Below, piece by piece: positions 2 through 12,588 of a stretch of DNA of 35,088 nt. The notes under the pieces are model-generated. The model worked only from the letters and a program-made list of their open reading frames with translations, did no database searches and was not told where the DNA came from. Positions within the stretch are counted from its first letter, which is position 1, and each line of letters begins with the position of its first letter. Origin of the DNA: Methanothrix sp. (GTDB lineage: Archaea > Halobacteriota > Methanosarcinia > Methanotrichales > Methanotrichaceae); contig JAPKYC010000177.1 of the NCBI GenBank assembly GCA_026394505.1, forward strand, positions 1-35,088, in the 5' to 3' direction. The translations under genes were made by a program, and so were the position numbers.

Positions 2-1189
2 CTAGTCGACGACTGCAACGTTCGCGTCTTCACCGGCGACGATGCCCTGGCAGACGAGATTGATGATCAGTACCTGATCGACATCAACAAGATGTTCCCA
101 GCCGACCAGGCCGAGGCCCTCAAGGCCGCTATCGGCAAGACAAGCTGGCAGGCCATCCATGTTCCAACCATCGTCGTCAGGTCCTGCGACGGCGGCACCA
201 CCTCCCGGTGGAGCGCCATGCAGCTATGTATGACCTTCATCGACGCCTACAACATGTGCGCCGGTGAGGCCGCTGTGGCTGATCTGGCCTACGCCGCCAA
301 GCACGCAGCCGTTCTGCAGATGTCCGAGATGCTGCCCGCAAGACGCGCACGCGGACCCAACAACCCCGGAGGACTGTCCTTTGGATTCCTGGCCGATATG
401 ATCCAGACCTCCAGGACACATGCTGCCGACCCAGTGAAGGTCTCCCTGAACGTAGTCGCCGCAGGCGCTGCGCTCTACGATCAGATCTGGCTGGGAAGCT
501 ACATGTCCGGCGGTGTCGGATTCACCCAGTACGCCACTGCAGCCTACACCAACGATGTCCTGGACGACTTCTGCTACTACGGCGTCGATTTCGCCGCAGA
601 CAAGTTCGGAGGATTCGCCAAGGCACCCCAGACTCTGGATCTAGCCAAGGAGCTGGCCACTGAGGTCAACGCCTACGGCATGGAGCAGTATGAGGAATTC
701 CCGACTCTGCTCGAGGATCACTTCGGTGGATCCCAGAGGGCATCCGTTCTGGCAGCCGCATCCGGTATTAGCTGCGCTATCGCCTCCGGCCACAGCCAGG
801 TAGGTCTCGCCGGCTGGTACCTGTCCATGCTCCTGCATAAGGAAGGATGGGGACGCCTGGGCTTCTTCGGCTACGACCTGCAGGATCAATGCGGTCCAAC
901 CAACGTGTTCTCCTACCAGTCAGACGAGGGCGCACCACTCGAGCTGAGGGGAGCTAACTACCCCAACTACGCGATGAACGTAGGTCACCAGGGCGAGTAC
1001 GCAGGCATCTCCAGCGCCGCACACGCCGGCCGCATGGACGCCTTCGCATGCAACCCCTTGATCAAGGTAACCTTCGCCAACCCCGGCATGGTATTCGACT
1101 GGGCAGATGTCCGCGCTTGCTTCGGCAAGGGTGGCGCCCGCGAGTTCCGCGCTGCAGGCGAGAGAAGCCTGGTCATGCCCGCAGTGTAG
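2..1189 (+). CDS. mcrA: Methyl-coenzyme M reductase alpha subunit (3' part)
   Basis: C-terminal about 395 residues of McrA; the gene begins before the window and the frame is open from base 2. McrA carries much of the coenzyme F430 active site of the enzyme that releases methane from methyl-CoM and CoB. The signature [14 protein letters not shown], used in mcrA primers, lies at 509-550, and [12 protein letters not shown] follows near 860-895. Aligning by eye with the Methanothermobacter enzyme, the residues that carry modifications are all present: N-methyl-His in AAKHAAV (codon at 302), 5-methyl-Arg in PARRARG (codon at 344), methyl-Gln in GGSQRA (codon at 734), thioglycine Gly (codon 869-871), didehydro-Asp (codon 884) and S-methyl-Cys (codon 890-892). 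mcrA is normally the last gene of mcrBDCGA, which fits the terminator just downstream. Confidence 0.98.
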
Positions 1190-1945: not shown

Positions 1946-2120
1946 AGATTTTCGAATTAGTGGTAAAGGCTTGGCTGGGCTGAGGCAGTCCTTTTGGACG
2001 AGAGCCGGGTCAGGATTTACGGGGGCGATCCAATCCAAATATTTGATGCCGTCCTGCAGTTCACTTCGAGCTGCGCTGCTGCACAAGAGGTTTAAGTGAC
2101 TGATCCGCAGATAGGCAGCA

Positions 2121-2130
2121 AATTAAAATA
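2121..2130 (+). promoter_or_regulatory. TATA-like box for ZIP transporter
   Basis: AATTAAAATA is centred about 27 bases upstream of the GTG at 2153, and no ribosome binding site is visible, so a leaderless transcript is likely. The box is flanked by GATAGG (about 2110-2115) and CCTATC (about 2139-2144), a 6-base inverted repeat that could be an operator for a metal-responsive regulator. Confidence 0.4.
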
Positions 2131-2152
2131 GATTCTTCCCTATCAGATTCTT

Positions 2153-2911
2153 GTGGAAGAAAATATTCTGGCAGCTCTCGCGCTCACCCTCTTTGCCGGC
2201 CTGGCCACCGGCATAGGCAGCCTGATCTCCTATTTCATCCCAAAACCCGACATGCGCTACCTCTCCGTGAGCCTGGGATTTGCGGCCGGAGTGATGATCT
2301 ACGTGGGCTTTGTGGACCTCTTCTTTAGCGCCAAAGCCGTATTGGGATTAGGCTACGCCAATCTCTTCTTCTTGTGCGGGCTTGTCCTCATCTATCTGCT
2401 GGACCATCTCATTCCTCATATTCACATGGACGGACAGGTGGATTCTCAGTGCAACCGTCTCTACCGGAGTGGGATAATGACCACCATCGGCATAGCCATC
2501 CACAATCTGCCCGAGGGCATGACCGTGGCTTTGGTCTCCCTGGCGGATCTCCGTCTGGGAATTCCCGTTGCCATAGCCATCGCCATTCACAATATTCCGG
2601 AAGGGATTGCCTGCTGCATACCGCTTTACTGCGCCACATCCGACAGAAAGAAATCCTGCTTGCTCTCTTTCGCCGCCGGCATGACCGAGCCCCTGGGAGG
2701 AGTCGTGGCTGTGCTTCTGCTCTATCCCTTTCTTAATGCCTGGATCTTGGCGGCAGCATCGGCCCTGGTGGCAGGGATCATGGTCTTCATCTGTTTTGAT
2801 GAGCTCATACCCATTGCCAATAAATATGGCAGCGAGCATCTCACCAATCTGGGAATCATAGTCGGATTTATCATAATGATGATTGGACTTGGCTTGATGG
2901 AAAATTTTTGA
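2153..2911 (+). CDS. zupT: ZIP-family divalent metal transporter
   Basis: A 252-residue polytopic membrane protein of the ZIP family (ZupT/GufA type), which imports Zn2+, Fe2+ or related ions. About eight hydrophobic segments are visible. The two metal-path motifs are intact: IAIHNLPEG (His117, Glu121) in TM4 and IAIHNIPEG (His146, Glu150) in TM5. A short His-containing loop (LIPHIHMDG, about residues 87-94) precedes them. Length is typical for bacterial and archaeal ZupT. Start is taken at GTG 2153 because no ATG precedes the first membrane helix. It stands alone between intergenic stretches. The true metal cannot be inferred from sequence. Confidence 0.92.
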   Translation: MEENILAALALTLFAGLATGIGSLISYFIPKPDMRYLSVSLGFAAGVMIYVGFVDLFFSAKAVLGLGYANLFFLCGLVLIYLLDHLIPHIHMDGQVDSQCNRLYRSGIMTTIGIAIHNLPEGMTVALVSLADLRLGIPVAIAIAIHNIPEGIACCIPLYCATSDRKKSCLLSFAAGMTEPLGGVVAVLLLYPFLNAWILAAASALVAGIMVFICFDELIPIANKYGSEHLTNLGIIVGFIIMMIGLGLMENF

Positions 2912-3024
2912 GGCATTGTGAACATAGCTTCATGGCCGCAGAAGGCGCAAATCCTGCGTCTCCCATGTCAAGGTATAAATAATTTCTCACAATGTTGCTA
3001 TTTACTATTACTATAAGAAAAGCT

Positions 3025-3061
3025 GATCTCGAACGAAATAGGATTACGCTCATTCGAGATC
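3025..3061. repeat. 12-base inverted repeat upstream of small secreted frame
   Basis: GATCTCGAACGA (3025-3036) and TCATTCGAGATC (3050-3061) are inverted copies with one mismatch, separated by 13 bases. The pair ends 22 bases before the ATG at 3084. It could be an operator or an RNA hairpin. Confidence 0.45.
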
Positions 3062-3083
3062 AAGGCTTTCGATCTGGTGATGG

Positions 3084-3297
3084 ATGATGAAGGCAATGCT
3101 CTTGGGCAGCTTCTGTCTGCTGCTGGCGTCAGTTTTAAGCACGGTTTATGCTTCTGATCGTAGGAGCAGTCGGCTAAGTGTTGGATGCCGTCGATGACTG
3201 GCGGGCGGAAATGCTGACCCGCGCCGATCTGGACATTGCCTGCAAAGACCCTAAGCATGGCCTCAATTCGAGGCCAGCTTTCTCACCAGAGGCATGA
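3084..3297 (+). pseudogene. Possible small secreted peptide, frame broken
   Basis: ATG at 3084 opens a 37-codon frame whose first 25 residues are a textbook signal peptide (MMKAM, then a leucine-rich core, then VYASD); it ends at a TGA (3195-3197). A second frame, shifted by one base, runs on from GTG 3178 to TGA 3295-3297 with protein-like composition (DDWRAEMLTRADLDIACKD). Joined by one frameshift they would make a secreted polypeptide of about 70 residues. It lies convergent to the neighbouring SPASM radical SAM gene and overlaps its 3' end. The alternatives are a genuine 37-residue secreted peptide, or chance. The rest of 2912-3083 shows only the inverted repeat described separately. Confidence 0.35.
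3259..3275. repeat. Perfect hairpin at radical SAM stop codon
   Basis: GGCCTC-AATTC-GAGGCC is a perfect 6-base-arm inverted repeat that spans the stop codon of the minus-strand radical SAM gene. It could stall or end transcription of that gene. Confidence 0.4.
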
Positions 3298-4444
3298 TTG
3301 CCGGCCTGGTGCCCTTCGCCGGCTTTGCCGGCCCGGCTGAAAGGCCCATCTCCAGGCCCAGGGATCCCATCATCTCCTGGTTGAAGCGCTCACCAATCTC
3401 ATCGAAGATCCTCTGATAGGCAATGCAATGAGGGTCGACCCCCTTAATCTCGCCGTTCGTGGGCGCTATGGCATTGTAGGGGCAGCCTCCCCGGCAGTAG
3501 CGGATATGCTTGCAGCCTTTGCATTCCCGGTCCACATACTCCTTGAAGCGGCCCATGCGCACTCCTGCCGCGGATTCTGCCAGATCCTTCCGGCTGGGAT
3601 GATCGCGGACATGGCCCATGACGTACTCCGGCATGCCCACGAAGCGATAGCAGGGATAGATGCTGCCATCCGGGCCCACGGCAAAGGTGTTCTCCATGCA
3701 GTCTACAAAGGTGCAGACAGTGCCCCGCCCGGTGAAGACGCATCGGCAGTAGTCATTGATATTGCGAACCTCTATCCGGTTCATGTTCTCCAGGTACTTG
3801 TCCAGCAAATAGACCAGAAGCTCGCCGTACTTTTCCGGAGAGAGCGCCCATTTGTCCGGCTCGTTGCTTCGCAGCGACGGCAATGCCGGATGCAGCTTGA
3901 GCGTGAGATCGTTTTCCAGGAAAAAATTGAATATATCTTCTTTGAATTGCACGGAGTAAGAGGTAAAAGTGCATATGAACTGCACCTGCAGACCGTGGCT
4001 CTTTGCCAGTTCATAGCCTCGCATGGTTCTCTCGTAGTAGCCCTCCGATCTTTGCAGGTCGTTTAACTCCTGGGGCCCATCCAGGCTGGAGCCGATGGGG
4101 ATGCTGTACTGGGCCAGGACATCGGCTAATTCAGGAGTAAGCTTCCAGAGGTTGGTCTGCAAAGCGAAGTTGGGCTCTAGATGCTGGAGTTCACCGGTAA
4201 GCAGGGGAAGAGCCTGCCGATAGAAATCGGCCCCGGCTAAGAGGGGTTCGCCTCCATGAAATGTGAAGGTGACGGGATCGCTCCGGAAATCCTTGAGCCA
4301 GGCCACAGTATCCTTAACGGTCTCTATGCTCATAATAGGAGAGCCCACCTCAGAACTCCAGCAATAAGCGCATTTGGATGGACAGCCAAGGGTGGGGATG
4401 ATCATGACGTGAAAAGGCCTTTTTTGTTTCATCTTTTGTCTCAT
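3263..4444 (-). CDS. Radical SAM/SPASM peptide- or protein-modifying enzyme
   Basis: About 393 residues. The N-terminal CPSKCAYC (CX3CX2C) binds the SAM-cleaving [4Fe-4S] cluster. A GGEP motif (FHGGEPLL) follows near residue 65. The C-terminal part has the cysteine pattern of a SPASM domain, CTFVDC then YPCYR then CKGCKHIRYCRGGC and a final Cys, which would hold two auxiliary clusters. Such enzymes install cross-links or oxidise residues in peptides, or mature anaerobic sulfatases. No sulfatase is nearby, and the arrangement resembles methanogen families annotated as putative peptide-modifying (Mhun_1560 type), an inference from memory. ATG 4444 is preferred over the adjacent TTG. A perfect 18-base palindrome sits just upstream. 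The substrate is unknown; see the small frame at 3084. Confidence 0.85.
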   Translation of the reverse strand: MRQKMKQKRPFHVMIIPTLGCPSKCAYCWSSEVGSPIMSIETVKDTVAWLKDFRSDPVTFTFHGGEPLLAGADFYRQALPLLTGELQHLEPNFALQTNLWKLTPELADVLAQYSIPIGSSLDGPQELNDLQRSEGYYERTMRGYELAKSHGLQVQFICTFTSYSVQFKEDIFNFFLENDLTLKLHPALPSLRSNEPDKWALSPEKYGELLVYLLDKYLENMNRIEVRNINDYCRCVFTGRGTVCTFVDCMENTFAVGPDGSIYPCYRFVGMPEYVMGHVRDHPSRKDLAESAAGVRMGRFKEYVDRECKGCKHIRYCRGGCPYNAIAPTNGEIKGVDPHCIAYQRIFDEIGERFNQEMMGSLGLEMGLSAGPAKPAKGTRPAIMPLVRKLASN

Positions 4445-4461
4445 CAATTTTTGCCCTTCTT

Positions 4462-4701: not shown

Positions 4702-5604
4702 TCAGCTCTTGACCGCCAGCATCCTCTCAATCGACCGGCGCGCCCTCACCGCTATCTCCTCGGGCACCGTCACCTGCGGCTGCAACGTTTGCAGCGCCTG
4801 CAACACCAGGGCCAGGGTGGTCTTCTTCATATTCTGGCAGATGGCGTTCGTGCTCAGCGGATAAAACTCCTTCAGAGGATTCTCCTTCTTCAGTCGGTAG
4901 ATCATGCCCGTCTCCGTGCCGATGATAAACTCCCTGGCAGCGCCGTCCTTGGCATGTCTGCCCATTCCGGCCGTGCTGTAGACGAAATCGGCCTGATCGA
5001 TGACTTCCGGTCGGCACTCCGGGTGCACCAGCACCTCTGCATTCGGGTGCTTTGACCGGGCGGCCTGCACCTCCTCCGCAGTGAGGTGATCGTGCACATA
5101 GCAGTAGCCGTTCCAGGGAATGATCTTCTTATCGGTATGGCGGGCCACGTAGGCGGCCAGATTCCTGTCCGGAACAAAGATGACCTCCTTCTCGGACAGT
5201 GAGTTTACCACCTGCACGCCGTTGGCGGAAGTGCAACAGACATCGCTCTCCGCTTTTATCTCAGCCGTGGAATTGACATAACAGACCACTGCTGCACCCG
5301 GATTCAGGGCTATAAGATCGCGGAGCTGATCAGGTGTAATCATGTGGGCCATGGGGCACCAGGCACCCTTAACCGGCAGAACGACCTTTTTTTGCGGGGA
5401 GAGAATGGCCGCAGTCTCCGCCATGAAGTCCACTCCACAAAAGATAATGACCTCCGAGTCCAGGCGGGCTGCAGCCCGGGAGAGCTCCAGGGAGTCGCCC
5501 ACCAGGTCGGCTGCATCCTGCACTTGCGGCATCTGGTAGTTATGGGCCAGGATGGTCGCATGGCGCTCCTTTTTTAAAGCGAGAATCTCTTCTATCATAG
5601 CCAT
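4702..5604 (-). CDS. nadA: Quinolinate synthase NadA
   Basis: A 300-residue NadA, which condenses iminoaspartate with dihydroxyacetone phosphate to quinolinate, the first committed intermediate of de novo NAD synthesis. The three repeated alpha/beta domains and family motifs are visible: ILAHNYQMPQVQD, SLELSRAA, CGVDFMAETA, and NSTAEIKAESDVCCTSAN. The single [4Fe-4S] cluster ligands fall at Cys83 (WCPMAHM), Cys168 (NGYCYVH) and Cys256 (NAICQNMKKTTL), with the expected spacing of about 86 residues. It is the last gene of the run thioesterase > ycaO > tfuA > nadA, 36 bases after tfuA, and may be co-transcribed. No aspartate oxidase/dehydrogenase or nadC is in the window. Confidence 0.96.
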   Translation of the reverse strand: MAMIEEILALKKERHATILAHNYQMPQVQDAADLVGDSLELSRAAARLDSEVIIFCGVDFMAETAAILSPQKKVVLPVKGAWCPMAHMITPDQLRDLIALNPGAAVVCYVNSTAEIKAESDVCCTSANGVQVVNSLSEKEVIFVPDRNLAAYVARHTDKKIIPWNGYCYVHDHLTAEEVQAARSKHPNAEVLVHPECRPEVIDQADFVYSTAGMGRHAKDGAAREFIIGTETGMIYRLKKENPLKEFYPLSTNAICQNMKKTTLALVLQALQTLQPQVTVPEEIAVRARRSIERMLAVKS

Positions 5605-5640: not shown

Positions 5641-6300
5641 CTAGTCATCTGCCATTCTGCGGACCCGCTCCAGGGCCAGCAGCGCATCCTCCATCTTGAA
5701 GTCCCGCTTCTCCCTGGCCAAAAATTCGCGAAAACGCTGCAGCTCCTTTTCCTTCACCAGGCCTGATGCATCCGAAAGCATGCGCTCATAGGTTCGATCG
5801 GGAAAGTATTGGGCCTCTGCGAAATGAAATAGCTTGTCTTTGCAGGAAGCGCTAATTACCCCCATCTGCCAGGCCAAATCCAAATTGAAGCGAATATTCA
5901 CCAGCGGCTCGGACCTGGGCTCATAGGAGAATGGATCGAAGACCAGAGCCACCTCATCATCCGAGACCAGATGGCCGCTTTTGTAAGCCTGATAAATCTT
6001 GCCTATGCCCTCCATGCCGTAAATGTCCAGCTCTGAGGCACGCAAGGCTCCCATGCTGGAGGCGCCCAGGACCTTTGCCCCCGCCTCCAGAGCATAGATT
6101 ACCTCCTTGTGAGCCACGGAGCATTCCTGAAAGAAGACGCCATCGATGAGCAGAATGATCCCGGCCCCTTCCTTGGCAGCCAGGTAAATGTCGCCCCGCT
6201 TGGCTGGTGGCCGATAGTCAGCCTCCAAAATCTGCTCCGCCCTAGCCCTGGAGAGGCTTGGCCCTAGGAAGACGACGATTCCTGGCATTTCTGCTGGCAT
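5641..6300 (-). CDS. tfuA: TfuA-like protein, partner of YcaO (McrA thioamidation)
   Basis: A 219-residue TfuA-family protein with the typical N-terminal VVFLGPSLSRARAEQIL and central GASSMGALRASEL segments. TfuA works with YcaO: in methanogens the pair converts a backbone glycine of McrA to thioglycine, TfuA probably delivering or generating sulfide equivalents (established genetically in Methanosarcina). It follows ycaO directly. With the first ATG (6300) the two genes overlap by 59 bases; the second ATG (6288, giving MPGIVVF) still overlaps by 47. Such long overlap suggests translational coupling and a fixed enzyme ratio. Confidence 0.92.
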   Translation of the reverse strand: MPAEMPGIVVFLGPSLSRARAEQILEADYRPPAKRGDIYLAAKEGAGIILLIDGVFFQECSVAHKEVIYALEAGAKVLGASSMGALRASELDIYGMEGIGKIYQAYKSGHLVSDDEVALVFDPFSYEPRSEPLVNIRFNLDLAWQMGVISASCKDKLFHFAEAQYFPDRTYERMLSDASGLVKEKELQRFREFLAREKRDFKMEDALLALERVRRMADD

Positions 6301-7507
6301 CTTTGCACCTTTTCCCCACCCTTTCCGGGTCCACCGCCGCTATCTCAAGCCCCGGCACAATCACCCTGACCACGGGAAGGCCTATCTCCTCGCGAGTCAA
6401 GTCCACTACCACTACCCGATCGAGGCTTGCCTCTTCCAGTTTCTTTAGCATGTATTTTATGTCAAGCAGAAAGTCATCGCTCTCAAAGGACTGGATCTTT
6501 GCAAAGCACTTCGTATCGGTTGCTTCAAACCAGTGCTTGTTAAGCCTCTTGGTCCGATCGTAGCCGATCTGCTTTCTAAAATCAGCTATCGTTGTGTCCT
6601 CTCTCGCCCCGTGAATCTGGGTGAGACGGCTTTGCGCCACCTCGGTGAGGGCGCGCAGCACGGCCACGCCGGCGCTGGTGTGCGTGCCCATGCCCGTGGT
6701 GAGAAGGGTTGGATCGCGCAGCCGTACATCATCGGCCGCGGCCGCGCAGGTCGGAACGCCAATGTCGCTGGTGATATCCCTCAGATAGACATCTACCTCG
6801 GCAGCCGCGAATTTATCCAGGAGGCCTTTCGCCAGGCCGTCCTCAACGTCGCAGATCAAAGGGCCGGCCCTCCTCGTCGCCTCCACCAGGGCCCAGGCAT
6901 CTCTTTCAATAACCTCGGCCAGACCATGAAATATTGCCTCTTCAATCACATTGCCCGAGGCCAGGCCAGTGGTATTGGTTCTAAAGAGGCGTTTGTAATC
7001 GGAGGGCAACGGATGAAAAACGGCATTGGCCGGAACTAAGATCTCTTCGTCATTCATGATGTCCCAGCCGGAAATCCAGGGTATCATGGCATCCGGCTCT
7101 GCCCCCTCCGGCAGGATCAGCTCGCGTGGGTCCAGCGCCCCGTCCAGACGGGAGAAGCAGTCGATTTTAAGCTCCCTGTCTTTCACCTCAGCGGAGTAGC
7201 GCTCCAGGCCCTCCATCATGGCCGATACTTTGGCCTCGGTGGGCGTGGCTCCTTTGCCGTTGTAGACGGAGATGGCACCGCGATCAGCCATGGGCCGGAT
7301 GGAGGAGAAGACGGGTATACCGATTCGGTCCAGATTGGTTATGTCCGCCACCCTGGTGATCCCGGCGGCGGGCAATTTGGCCTCGGCGCGCTTTAGCGTC
7401 TCCTCGGGTGGCAGAGCCCGATGGGTATCGTCTTTGTACTTTTTTATGCAGGACGCAAGTCTCATTGCCTGGGCTAAGGGCAGCGATGGAATATAAACTC
7501 TGTTCAA
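6242..7507 (-). CDS. ycaO: YcaO-type thioamide-forming enzyme (McrA glycine)
   Basis: A YcaO-domain protein of 407-421 residues. YcaO uses ATP to activate a peptide backbone carbonyl; with TfuA it makes the McrA thioglycine. Family features include the THRALPPEETL start region, FSSIRPMADRGAISVYNGKG, MEGLERYSAE, AIFHGLAEVIERDAW and ALTEVAQSRLTQIHGARED, where the acidic ATP/Mg residues reside. The open frame begins at TTG 7507, overlapping the thioesterase stop, but ATG 7465 (giving MRLASCIKKY) matches the usual YcaO N-terminus better and may be the real start. The substrate gene mcrA lies 5 kb away in the same window. Confidence 0.93.
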   Translation of the reverse strand: MNRVYIPSLPLAQAMRLASCIKKYKDDTHRALPPEETLKRAEAKLPAAGITRVADITNLDRIGIPVFSSIRPMADRGAISVYNGKGATPTEAKVSAMMEGLERYSAEVKDRELKIDCFSRLDGALDPRELILPEGAEPDAMIPWISGWDIMNDEEILVPANAVFHPLPSDYKRLFRTNTTGLASGNVIEEAIFHGLAEVIERDAWALVEATRRAGPLICDVEDGLAKGLLDKFAAAEVDVYLRDITSDIGVPTCAAAADDVRLRDPTLLTTGMGTHTSAGVAVLRALTEVAQSRLTQIHGAREDTTIADFRKQIGYDRTKRLNKHWFEATDTKCFAKIQSFESDDFLLDIKYMLKKLEEASLDRVVVVDLTREEIGLPVVRVIVPGLEIAAVDPERVGKRCKDASRNARNRRLPRAKPLQG

Positions 7508-10021: not shown

Positions 10022-10594
10022 ATGTTTCAAAGGTGCGGCTTTGCCGACGCCGATGCAAATTTGCCGGATGCGGACTGCGTGGTAGTTGGACTGCCCTTCG
10101 ACTGCATCGCCTCTTTTAATTTCGAGAGCTATGATCACTATTACGACGTGGATCTGGCAGAGCTAGCTATTTGCGATCTTTTAGGGGGAGAGCATTCCAT
10201 CACTCCGCCCATTGTGGAGAGCCTGGCGCGGCGAAGCGCGCCGGGGCGCGCTCAGCGTGCTGGTGCTGGACGCGCACCTGGACCTGCGCGATGAATTCGG
10301 CAACACCCGGTACAGCCACGCCTGCGCCAGCCGGAGAATCCTGAAAAAGAAGGGCGTCAAGGCTTACGCCTCCATCGGCATTCGCAGCGGCAGCAAAGAG
10401 GAGTTCTCATTCGCGAAGGTGAATAACATCTCGTATTTCGAGTGATCGAGCGCGCTGCGCCGAAGGCGATAGGCCTGGATATAAACGAGCTTACCCCAGC
10501 CTATGATCGCGGCGAGACGGCGCTGCTGGCGGCAAGGCTGGCGCGGGAGTTTATAGCGGCGAAGGAAAAAATGAATTCAAAAACAAAAATTTAA
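10022..10594 (+). pseudogene. speB: Agmatinase (SpeB) pseudogene
   Basis: Agmatinase hydrolyses agmatine to putrescine and urea. The first frame (10022 on) gives PDADCVVVGLPFDCIASF, NFESYDHYYDVDLAEL and LLGGEHSITPPIVESLAR, then drifts. A second frame resumes with LSVLVLDAHLDLRDEFG, the Mn-binding LDAHLDLR motif, and YSHACASRRI, GIRSGSKEEFSF, stopping at 10445. The original frame resumes at 10442 with AIGLDINELTPAYDRGETA through the TAA at 10592-10594. Against the usual length of about 290 residues there are two frameshifts and at least three internal deletions, including the block around the second metal motif. It cannot give an active enzyme. The 3' end overlaps the convergent coaD stop. Confidence 0.88.
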
Positions 10595-11367: not shown

Positions 11368-12588
11368 ATGGTCACCCTGGAGAAGATCGCCCACCTGGCT
11401 GAGGAGTGCAAATTTGACTCCCTGGGCCCGGCCCGATGCCCGACGGTGGTGGGCGTGAACGCTGAGAAGCTCAGCACTTTGGGAGAGGGCACGCGTCATG
11501 ACGTTTGCGCGTCCACCTTCTCCCCACGCGAAACGCCTTTGCCCGGAATTTGCCATGCCTTCACCCAAGACGGCAGATGCGTCAGCCTCTTCAAGACCCT
11601 TTACACCAACCACTGCACCCATCAGTGCAGCTACTGCACCAATGCTGTAAACTGCAGCCGCAAAGCCAGAGCCTTCTCCTATACCCCGCAAGAGCTGGCC
11701 AGGATCACCCTCTCCCTTTACCGGTCGAATTATATTGAAGGTCTCTTTCTCAGTTCCGGCGCGGGTCGAGATGAGGACAACGTCATGGAAAAGATGGTAG
11801 AGACCGCCAGGCTGCTTCGCCAAAAATTCGCTTTTTCCGGATACATTCATCTCAAGGTCCTGCCCGGCGCATCCCAGGCTCATATCCAGGAGGCTGTAGA
11901 GCTGGCGGATCGGGTAAGCATAAATTTAGAGGCGGCATCTGCCTCGCGCATGTTTGATATCTGTGCTACCAAGAACTACGAGAGCGATATCCTGCAAAGA
12001 CAGAGATATATCCGCGATATGTCATCCGAGACCTCCCATGCCGCCCAGACCATTCTGCCTGCCGGCCAGACCACGCAGCTTGTGGTAGGTGCAGCCGGGG
12101 AGAGCGATGAGGAGATCTTCAAAAGGGTCCTTTATGAGTACAAAGAGATTGGAGTGCGAAGGGCCTACTACAGCGCTTTTTCCCCTCAGCGGGGTACATT
12201 CTTTGAGAACAAAAAGGCCCAGCCGCTCTGGCGAGAGCACCGCCTCTATCAGATGGACTGGCTATTTCGGGTCTACCACTTCCAGCCAGGCGAGATCCGT
12301 CATGCCTTTAATGAGAATGGCTTTCTCTGCAATGCCGACCCCAAGACGGCCATCGCCAGGGAGTTTCTGGACTTGCCAGTGGACCCAAATACCGCCTCAT
12401 TCCGGGAATTGCTGAGAGTGCCGGGCATAGGGCCCAGGAGCGCAGAAAGAATTGTTGCCTACCGCAAACGGCAGCCGATTGCGGCCAAAGCAGAGCTGGC
12501 GACAATGGGGGTGCGAATCAAGAGTGCCTCGACCTTTCTGAAGATCAACGGCTGGAGAGATACAACTCTGGAGATGTGGCAGGCTTGA
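11368..12588 (+). CDS. Radical SAM protein with helix-hairpin-helix, putative DNA modification/repair
   Basis: A 406-residue protein of the family annotated as putative DNA modification/repair radical SAM protein (TIGR03916 type). The cluster motif is CTHQCSYC (Cys83, Cys87, Cys90), followed by LFLSSGAGRDEDNVMEKM typical of the family. Residues about 346-370 form a helix-hairpin-helix, LRVPGIGPRSAERIVAYR, a non-specific DNA-binding element. The next gene, a DUF4130 protein, overlaps its 3' end; the two are a recurring pair in bacteria and archaea. The chemistry has not been settled to my knowledge. Confidence 0.9.
   Translation: MVTLEKIAHLAEECKFDSLGPARCPTVVGVNAEKLSTLGEGTRHDVCASTFSPRETPLPGICHAFTQDGRCVSLFKTLYTNHCTHQCSYCTNAVNCSRKARAFSYTPQELARITLSLYRSNYIEGLFLSSGAGRDEDNVMEKMVETARLLRQKFAFSGYIHLKVLPGASQAHIQEAVELADRVSINLEAASASRMFDICATKNYESDILQRQRYIRDMSSETSHAAQTILPAGQTTQLVVGAAGESDEEIFKRVLYEYKEIGVRRAYYSAFSPQRGTFFENKKAQPLWREHRLYQMDWLFRVYHFQPGEIRHAFNENGFLCNADPKTAIAREFLDLPVDPNTASFRELLRVPGIGPRSAERIVAYRKRQPIAAKAELATMGVRIKSASTFLKINGWRDTTLEMWQA

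Follow-up and report, generated by a model that had tools for sequence, protein, structure and literature searches.

Which molecule does a radical SAM enzyme act upon when its gene overlaps what looks like the gene of a small secreted peptide? The question is raised by a window of 35,088 nucleotides, the whole stretch of DNA analysed here (contig C163 of a Methanothrix sp. assembly), which carries the part of mcrA that encodes the C terminus, the YcaO/TfuA pair for McrA thioamidation and a TIGR04083 gene. The original prediction had correctly called the product of the last a SPASM radical SAM enzyme (683 bits against a cut-off of 300), and had placed candidate substrates at the 3' end of its gene. 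All the frames that it described exist: in an ORF check of the window, a 37-codon frame with a signal-peptide-like start lies on the plus strand at 3084-3197, a +1 frame with a cysteine-containing tail at 3178-3297 reaches into the 3' end of the enzyme gene, and an 86-codon frame lies on the minus strand. The features of this region, including our reading of each frame, are as follows.

2153-2911, plus strand: ZupT zinc transporter, upstream end of a truncated metal cassette (NF003243, 288 bits; same neighbour in loci L060, L061 and L062)
2998-3258, minus strand: 86-codon frame with three cysteines, antisense shadow of the scar and no gene (no family match, relative only antisense)
3084-3159, plus strand: DUF2202 remnant, first ~25 codons with the signal peptide (DNA match to contig C190 and L062; Pfam DUF2202)
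3158-3159, no strand: deletion junction with a 2-base overlap (blastn breakpoints)
3158-3258, plus strand: remnant of a NifX/NifB-family gene, last ~33 codons, the "Cys tail" (DNA identity; PF02579)
3263-4447, minus strand: TIGR04083 radical SAM/SPASM enzyme, 394 codons from TTG at 4447, ATG at 4444 being possible (NCBIfam profile)

A deletion scar beside the enzyme gene

A query covering 2905-3262 gave two separate matches within the same genome, 2907-3159 corresponding to C190:6678-6928 and 3158-3258 to C190:3846-3946; the two share one orientation and are separated by 2.7 kb. The first corresponds to the 5' part of a DUF2202 gene (2912-3159, i.e., from ~2912 onwards, taking in the upstream region of the remnant) and the second to the 3'-terminal part of a NifX-family gene. 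In C190 and in relatives such as genome G017 (L062), zupT comes first, then the gene of a secreted DUF2202 protein, then a CDF transporter gene whose product has a NifX-like domain, and last NifX-1 and NifX-2; the DUF2202 ORFs of C190 and G017 are intact (216-220 aa). Behind zupT, the window has only ~25 codons from the start of DUF2202, to which the final ~33 codons of NifX-2 are joined directly, so that the rest of DUF2202, the CDF transporter, NifX-1 and most of NifX-2 are lost, a stretch of 2732 bp compared with C190 and 2936 bp compared with G017. DNA identity is 90.7% to C190 over 2075-3159, and 78-84% between the NifX tail and intact genes in L060, L062, L059 and L065. The breakpoints are concordant in L060, L061 and L062; together with the origin in two genes, they show, on DNA comparison, that the plus-strand "peptide" is a deletion scar that joins two unrelated gene ends and encodes no substrate.

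Thus, of the suggested "decayed substrate gene", the decay is confirmed but the substrate is not: the frame is a chimera of a DUF2202 start and a NifX end left by a 2.7-2.9 kb deletion. The "one-base shift" is likewise present, and is explained by the two halves matching separate genes in different frames, not by a frameshift within one gene. That 3084-3297 is a real substrate gene broken by a frameshift or a sequencing error, as the signal-peptide-like start and the cysteine in the tail might invite one to believe, is hardly credible, given that the halves belong to two genes 2.7-2.9 kb apart both in relatives and in the same genome, and we consider it ruled out by the matching breakpoints; a 37-residue peptide fails on the same match to two different genes. 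Neither frame is kept beside the enzyme in the close relatives that have it (24 of the 25 members of the genus), and no intact small ORF of the kind expected of a RiPP precursor was found, the 37-aa frame not being conserved next to the enzyme among these genus relatives. Outside the window, its start is seen only where DUF2202-type genes begin, and the Cys tail only where NifX genes end. The minus-strand frame, put forward as a second substrate candidate, gave no protein-family match in a profile search of the window, and its sole relative runs antisense to the NifX tail in G017 (L017), a pattern that does not amount to conserved coding; the frame is antisense to the scar region and is not a gene. 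Judged from these comparisons, the frames are more than chance, yet not peptides.

It could be argued that the junction is an assembly chimera and that no deletion took place. The assembly is fragmented (310 contigs, 78% complete) and contains near-duplicate regions, the mcrA ends of C163 and C190 being 96% identical and C81 bearing a further, partial copy of the enzyme. However, on either side of the junction the flanks of the window are 9-17% different from C190, so that the junction is not a splice of C190 itself, and we regard a chimera as quite improbable. Whether deletion or chimera, there is no peptide gene at the junction.

Some further observations concern the assembly and the cassette. 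C163 (window 2-1189) and C190 (L240:2064-3245) both break inside mcrA, and C81 begins with its partial TIGR04083 at 91% DNA identity; these near-duplicates reflect a segmental duplication or the presence of two strains in the assembly. The CDF cation transporter seen at L062:3973-5211 and L060:4841-6082, whose C-terminal domain is NifX-like (PF02579), is encoded together with ZupT, DUF2202 and two NifX proteins, of which one ends in a Gly/Arg-rich tail, and the whole cassette is probably a metal-handling cluster. Elsewhere in the window, 11368-12588 encodes a TIGR03916-like radical SAM protein (338 bits, just below the cut-off of 343.5; putative DNA modification/repair), whose end is overlapped by a 208-aa ORF, and a 90-aa ORF at 10022-10294 resembles the start of an agmatinase-type gene, ends early and is possibly frameshifted.

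The enzyme and its neighbours

The enzyme itself is a clear full-length member of TIGR04083 (NCBIfam rSAM_pep_methan; 682.9 bits, covering profile positions 1-376 of 376), a family curated as putatively peptide-modifying with no known function. The cysteines of the Cx3Cx2C motif of the SAM cluster (Cys 22, 26 and 29) and those of the SPASM region (Cys 245, 250, 266, 309, 312, 318, 322 and 341) are invariant in an alignment of 20 homologues. Its nearest solved relatives are anaerobic sulfatase maturases (4k36/4k37, E 3e-46), with which (4k36/4k37/4k38/4k39) it has the radical SAM and SPASM architecture in common; it is not itself a member of that group, reaching 165 bits against an equivalog cut-off of 349.45 for TIGR03942. 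Matches above the TIGR04083 cut-off are present in 150 of 394 Halobacteriota and 132 of 151 Methanobacteriales genomes, usually as a single copy (nearly always in Halobacteriota), and the viral contigs gave remote radical SAM relatives only and no closer match. It is a methanogen-specific SPASM radical SAM enzyme.

The window places it among genes of methyl-coenzyme M reductase (MCR), the methane-forming enzyme of archaea, and its maturation:

2-1189, plus strand: C-terminal part of McrA, truncated at the contig start, candidate substrate (TIGR03256)
4702-5604, minus strand: quinolinate synthase NadA, between the enzyme and TfuA/YcaO (NF006878, 424 bits)
5641-6300, minus strand: TfuA-related McrA-glycine thioamidation protein (NF033432, 274.7 bits)
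6242-7507, minus strand: YcaO-type McrA-glycine thioamidation protein (TIGR03266, 491 bits)

Such a neighbourhood is conserved, though not in every lineage. The enzyme follows mcrBDCGA on the same strand in all 10 enzyme-bearing genomes of genus g7, and in the enzyme-negative congeners mcrA directly adjoins the next gene, the enzyme being precisely absent in between. The order in G085, from another family, is mcrBDCGA, DUF169 and enzyme. Across 29 loci from the window's genus and sampled relatives of its class, mmp10 lies immediately upstream of the enzyme in eight, all of them from the window's genus; the mmp10-enzyme pair is convergent to the mcr operon in G009, and G235 has enzyme and mmp10 in divergent orientation, with ~5 kb between the enzyme and mcrA. 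The enzyme is not near mcr in Methanosarcina and Methanothermobacter. By a rough estimate that assumes a linkage rate of 0.8% per genus, chance would link ~0.4 genera among ~45, and at least four were observed.

The consistent presence of mcr and mmp10 as neighbours ties the enzyme to MCR. Mmp10 (TIGR03278), encoded by the adjacent gene in several relatives, is likewise a radical SAM enzyme that acts on McrA (arginine methylation), but it is a B12-dependent methyltransferase of another subfamily, whereas TIGR04083 has a SPASM domain instead. The YcaO-TfuA pair brings MCR maturation genes into the same window; unlike the enzyme, it is not radical SAM, and it modifies a glycine neighbouring the aspartate that we propose as target. 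We consider with fair confidence that the TIGR04083 enzyme is a strong candidate for the formation of didehydroaspartate in McrA, which would be its most likely substrate. The link to MCR is newly proposed here: among the open-access articles searched, none mentions TIGR04083 or connects it with MCR. Within one genus, no McrA residues were found that distinguish members with the enzyme from those without it. In G033, part of the mcrA 3' end, the modified loop included, occurs a second time immediately downstream of the enzyme (L070:9714-10198), as if recombination with a second copy of the mcrA end had brought the enzyme gene into the mcr operon.

The curated family names suggest another target, the 50-aa Cys-rich protein TIGR04165, which in Methanobacteriales adjoins the enzyme at 7 of 10 loci and lies just upstream of it in Methanothermobacter. 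Nevertheless, TIGR04165 is not above cut-off in any of 41 genomes of the window's class, the window's genus included, even though 29 of these have the enzyme; it resembles a CxxC...CxxC zinc ribbon; and no small-ORF family of at least 40 aa recurs beside the enzyme across the window's genus. The window's own genome (78% complete) likewise gave no TIGR04165 match at E <= 0.001. It is thus unlikely that TIGR04165, or some other small peptide, is what the family modifies, and McrA remains our preferred substrate. Within Methanobacteriales, where its positions include L193:6886-7038 and L160:2627-2833, TIGR04165 could be a small-protein substrate of the enzyme or an accessory factor. In M. wolfeii it is intact despite a stop in the enzyme gene.

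Species patterns of enzyme and modification

Didehydroaspartate is present in M. marburgensis, M. barkeri and M. acetivorans (PMC9081873 Table 1; M. marburgensis also PMC7058361) and in ANME-2c and ANME-2d (PMC12413448), and is absent from M. wolfeii, Ca. Ethanoperedens thermophilum, M. shengliensis, M. kandleri, M. formicicus, M. thermolithotrophicus and ANME-1 (PMC9081873). The enzyme that installs it is stated as unknown (PMC7581889, PMC8070964), and S-methylcysteine has its own enzyme, McmA (PMC7058361).

Taxa were assigned via the identity of their McrA to solved structures. The enzyme is intact (375 aa) in M. marburgensis (G558, McrA identical over 362 aa) and present in M. acetivorans (G375, McrA 100% to 8gf5) and M. 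barkeri (G408, McrA 100% to 1e6y). It is also present in all three sampled Methanoperedens genomes (G330, G357 and G395), the nearest structures to the McrA of G357 being 9qqt and 9qr1, which we take to be the ANME-2d entries of PMC12413448. No enzyme was found for Ca. Ethanoperedens (G381, McrA identical to 7b1s) among the matches listed in the Halobacteriota profile search. Finally, the gene of M. wolfeii (G565, McrA identical to PDB 5A8K over 362 aa) has an in-frame TAG after codon 336, with the loss of several nearly invariant tail residues. Presence or absence of the enzyme thus agrees with the published didehydroaspartate data in all six testable taxa, a small sample for which agreement by count alone has 1 chance in 15. 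An ANME-2c genome was recognised via its McrA (G589, 92% to 9qm5).

The M. wolfeii gene otherwise looks constrained, with dN/dS of 0.06-0.10 against its congeners and no relaxed selection seen by this measure, which implies that the loss, if real, is recent. The stop codon rests on one assembly, and may be recent, an error or tolerated. In G563, the TIGR04083 gene is split by a frameshift (L191:5709-6835); didehydroaspartate is predicted to be absent there, unless the frameshift is a sequencing error.

Linkage to mcr and mmp10 would be equally strong for an enzyme that matured MCR by any other modification, whether of another residue or of the beta or gamma subunit. However, among the modifications without an assigned enzyme, only didehydroaspartate is distributed across species as the enzyme is: N1-methylhistidine occurs universally, M. 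marburgensis and Methanosarcina lack 6-hydroxytryptophan, and the remaining ones are restricted to ANME-1, ANME-2d or Ethanoperedens. As this counts against any other MCR modification, we think such a role improbable and retain didehydroaspartate as the likelier product.

Proposed reaction and its meaning

Anaerobic sulfatase maturases perform a two-electron oxidation of Cys or Ser via abstraction of a C-beta hydrogen, assisted by an auxiliary cluster. By analogy with them, we infer all chemical steps of the TIGR04083 reaction. The substrate would be the McrA aspartate in the ...GYDLQDQC... loop beside thioglycine, whose equivalent in the McrA of the window is encoded at 884-886. The SAM cluster would generate a 5'-deoxyadenosyl radical that abstracts the C-beta hydrogen of this aspartate, the auxiliary cluster would take up an electron from it, and a base would remove the C-alpha proton, yielding didehydroaspartate. 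The catalytic Asp277 of the Clostridium maturase aligns with the invariant Tyr267 of the window protein, which is followed by the invariant Arg268; one may speculate that this arginine holds the carboxylate of the substrate.

Almost all biological methane is made by MCR, whose active site holds unusual modified residues. For the original prediction, our analysis is a correction, the neighbouring "secreted peptide" being an ordinary deletion scar. A named candidate gene, a species-level prediction and an operon-level pattern of gain and loss make the didehydroaspartate question testable. We lean slightly towards the wider view that TIGR04083, as a SPASM radical SAM dehydrogenase, is the synthase of didehydroaspartate in MCR, and that its gene has been gained and lost at the mcr operon. 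If true, this would bear on the expression of active MCR in other hosts, and the gain and loss of the enzyme would explain the patchy occurrence of didehydroaspartate among methanogens and methanotrophs.
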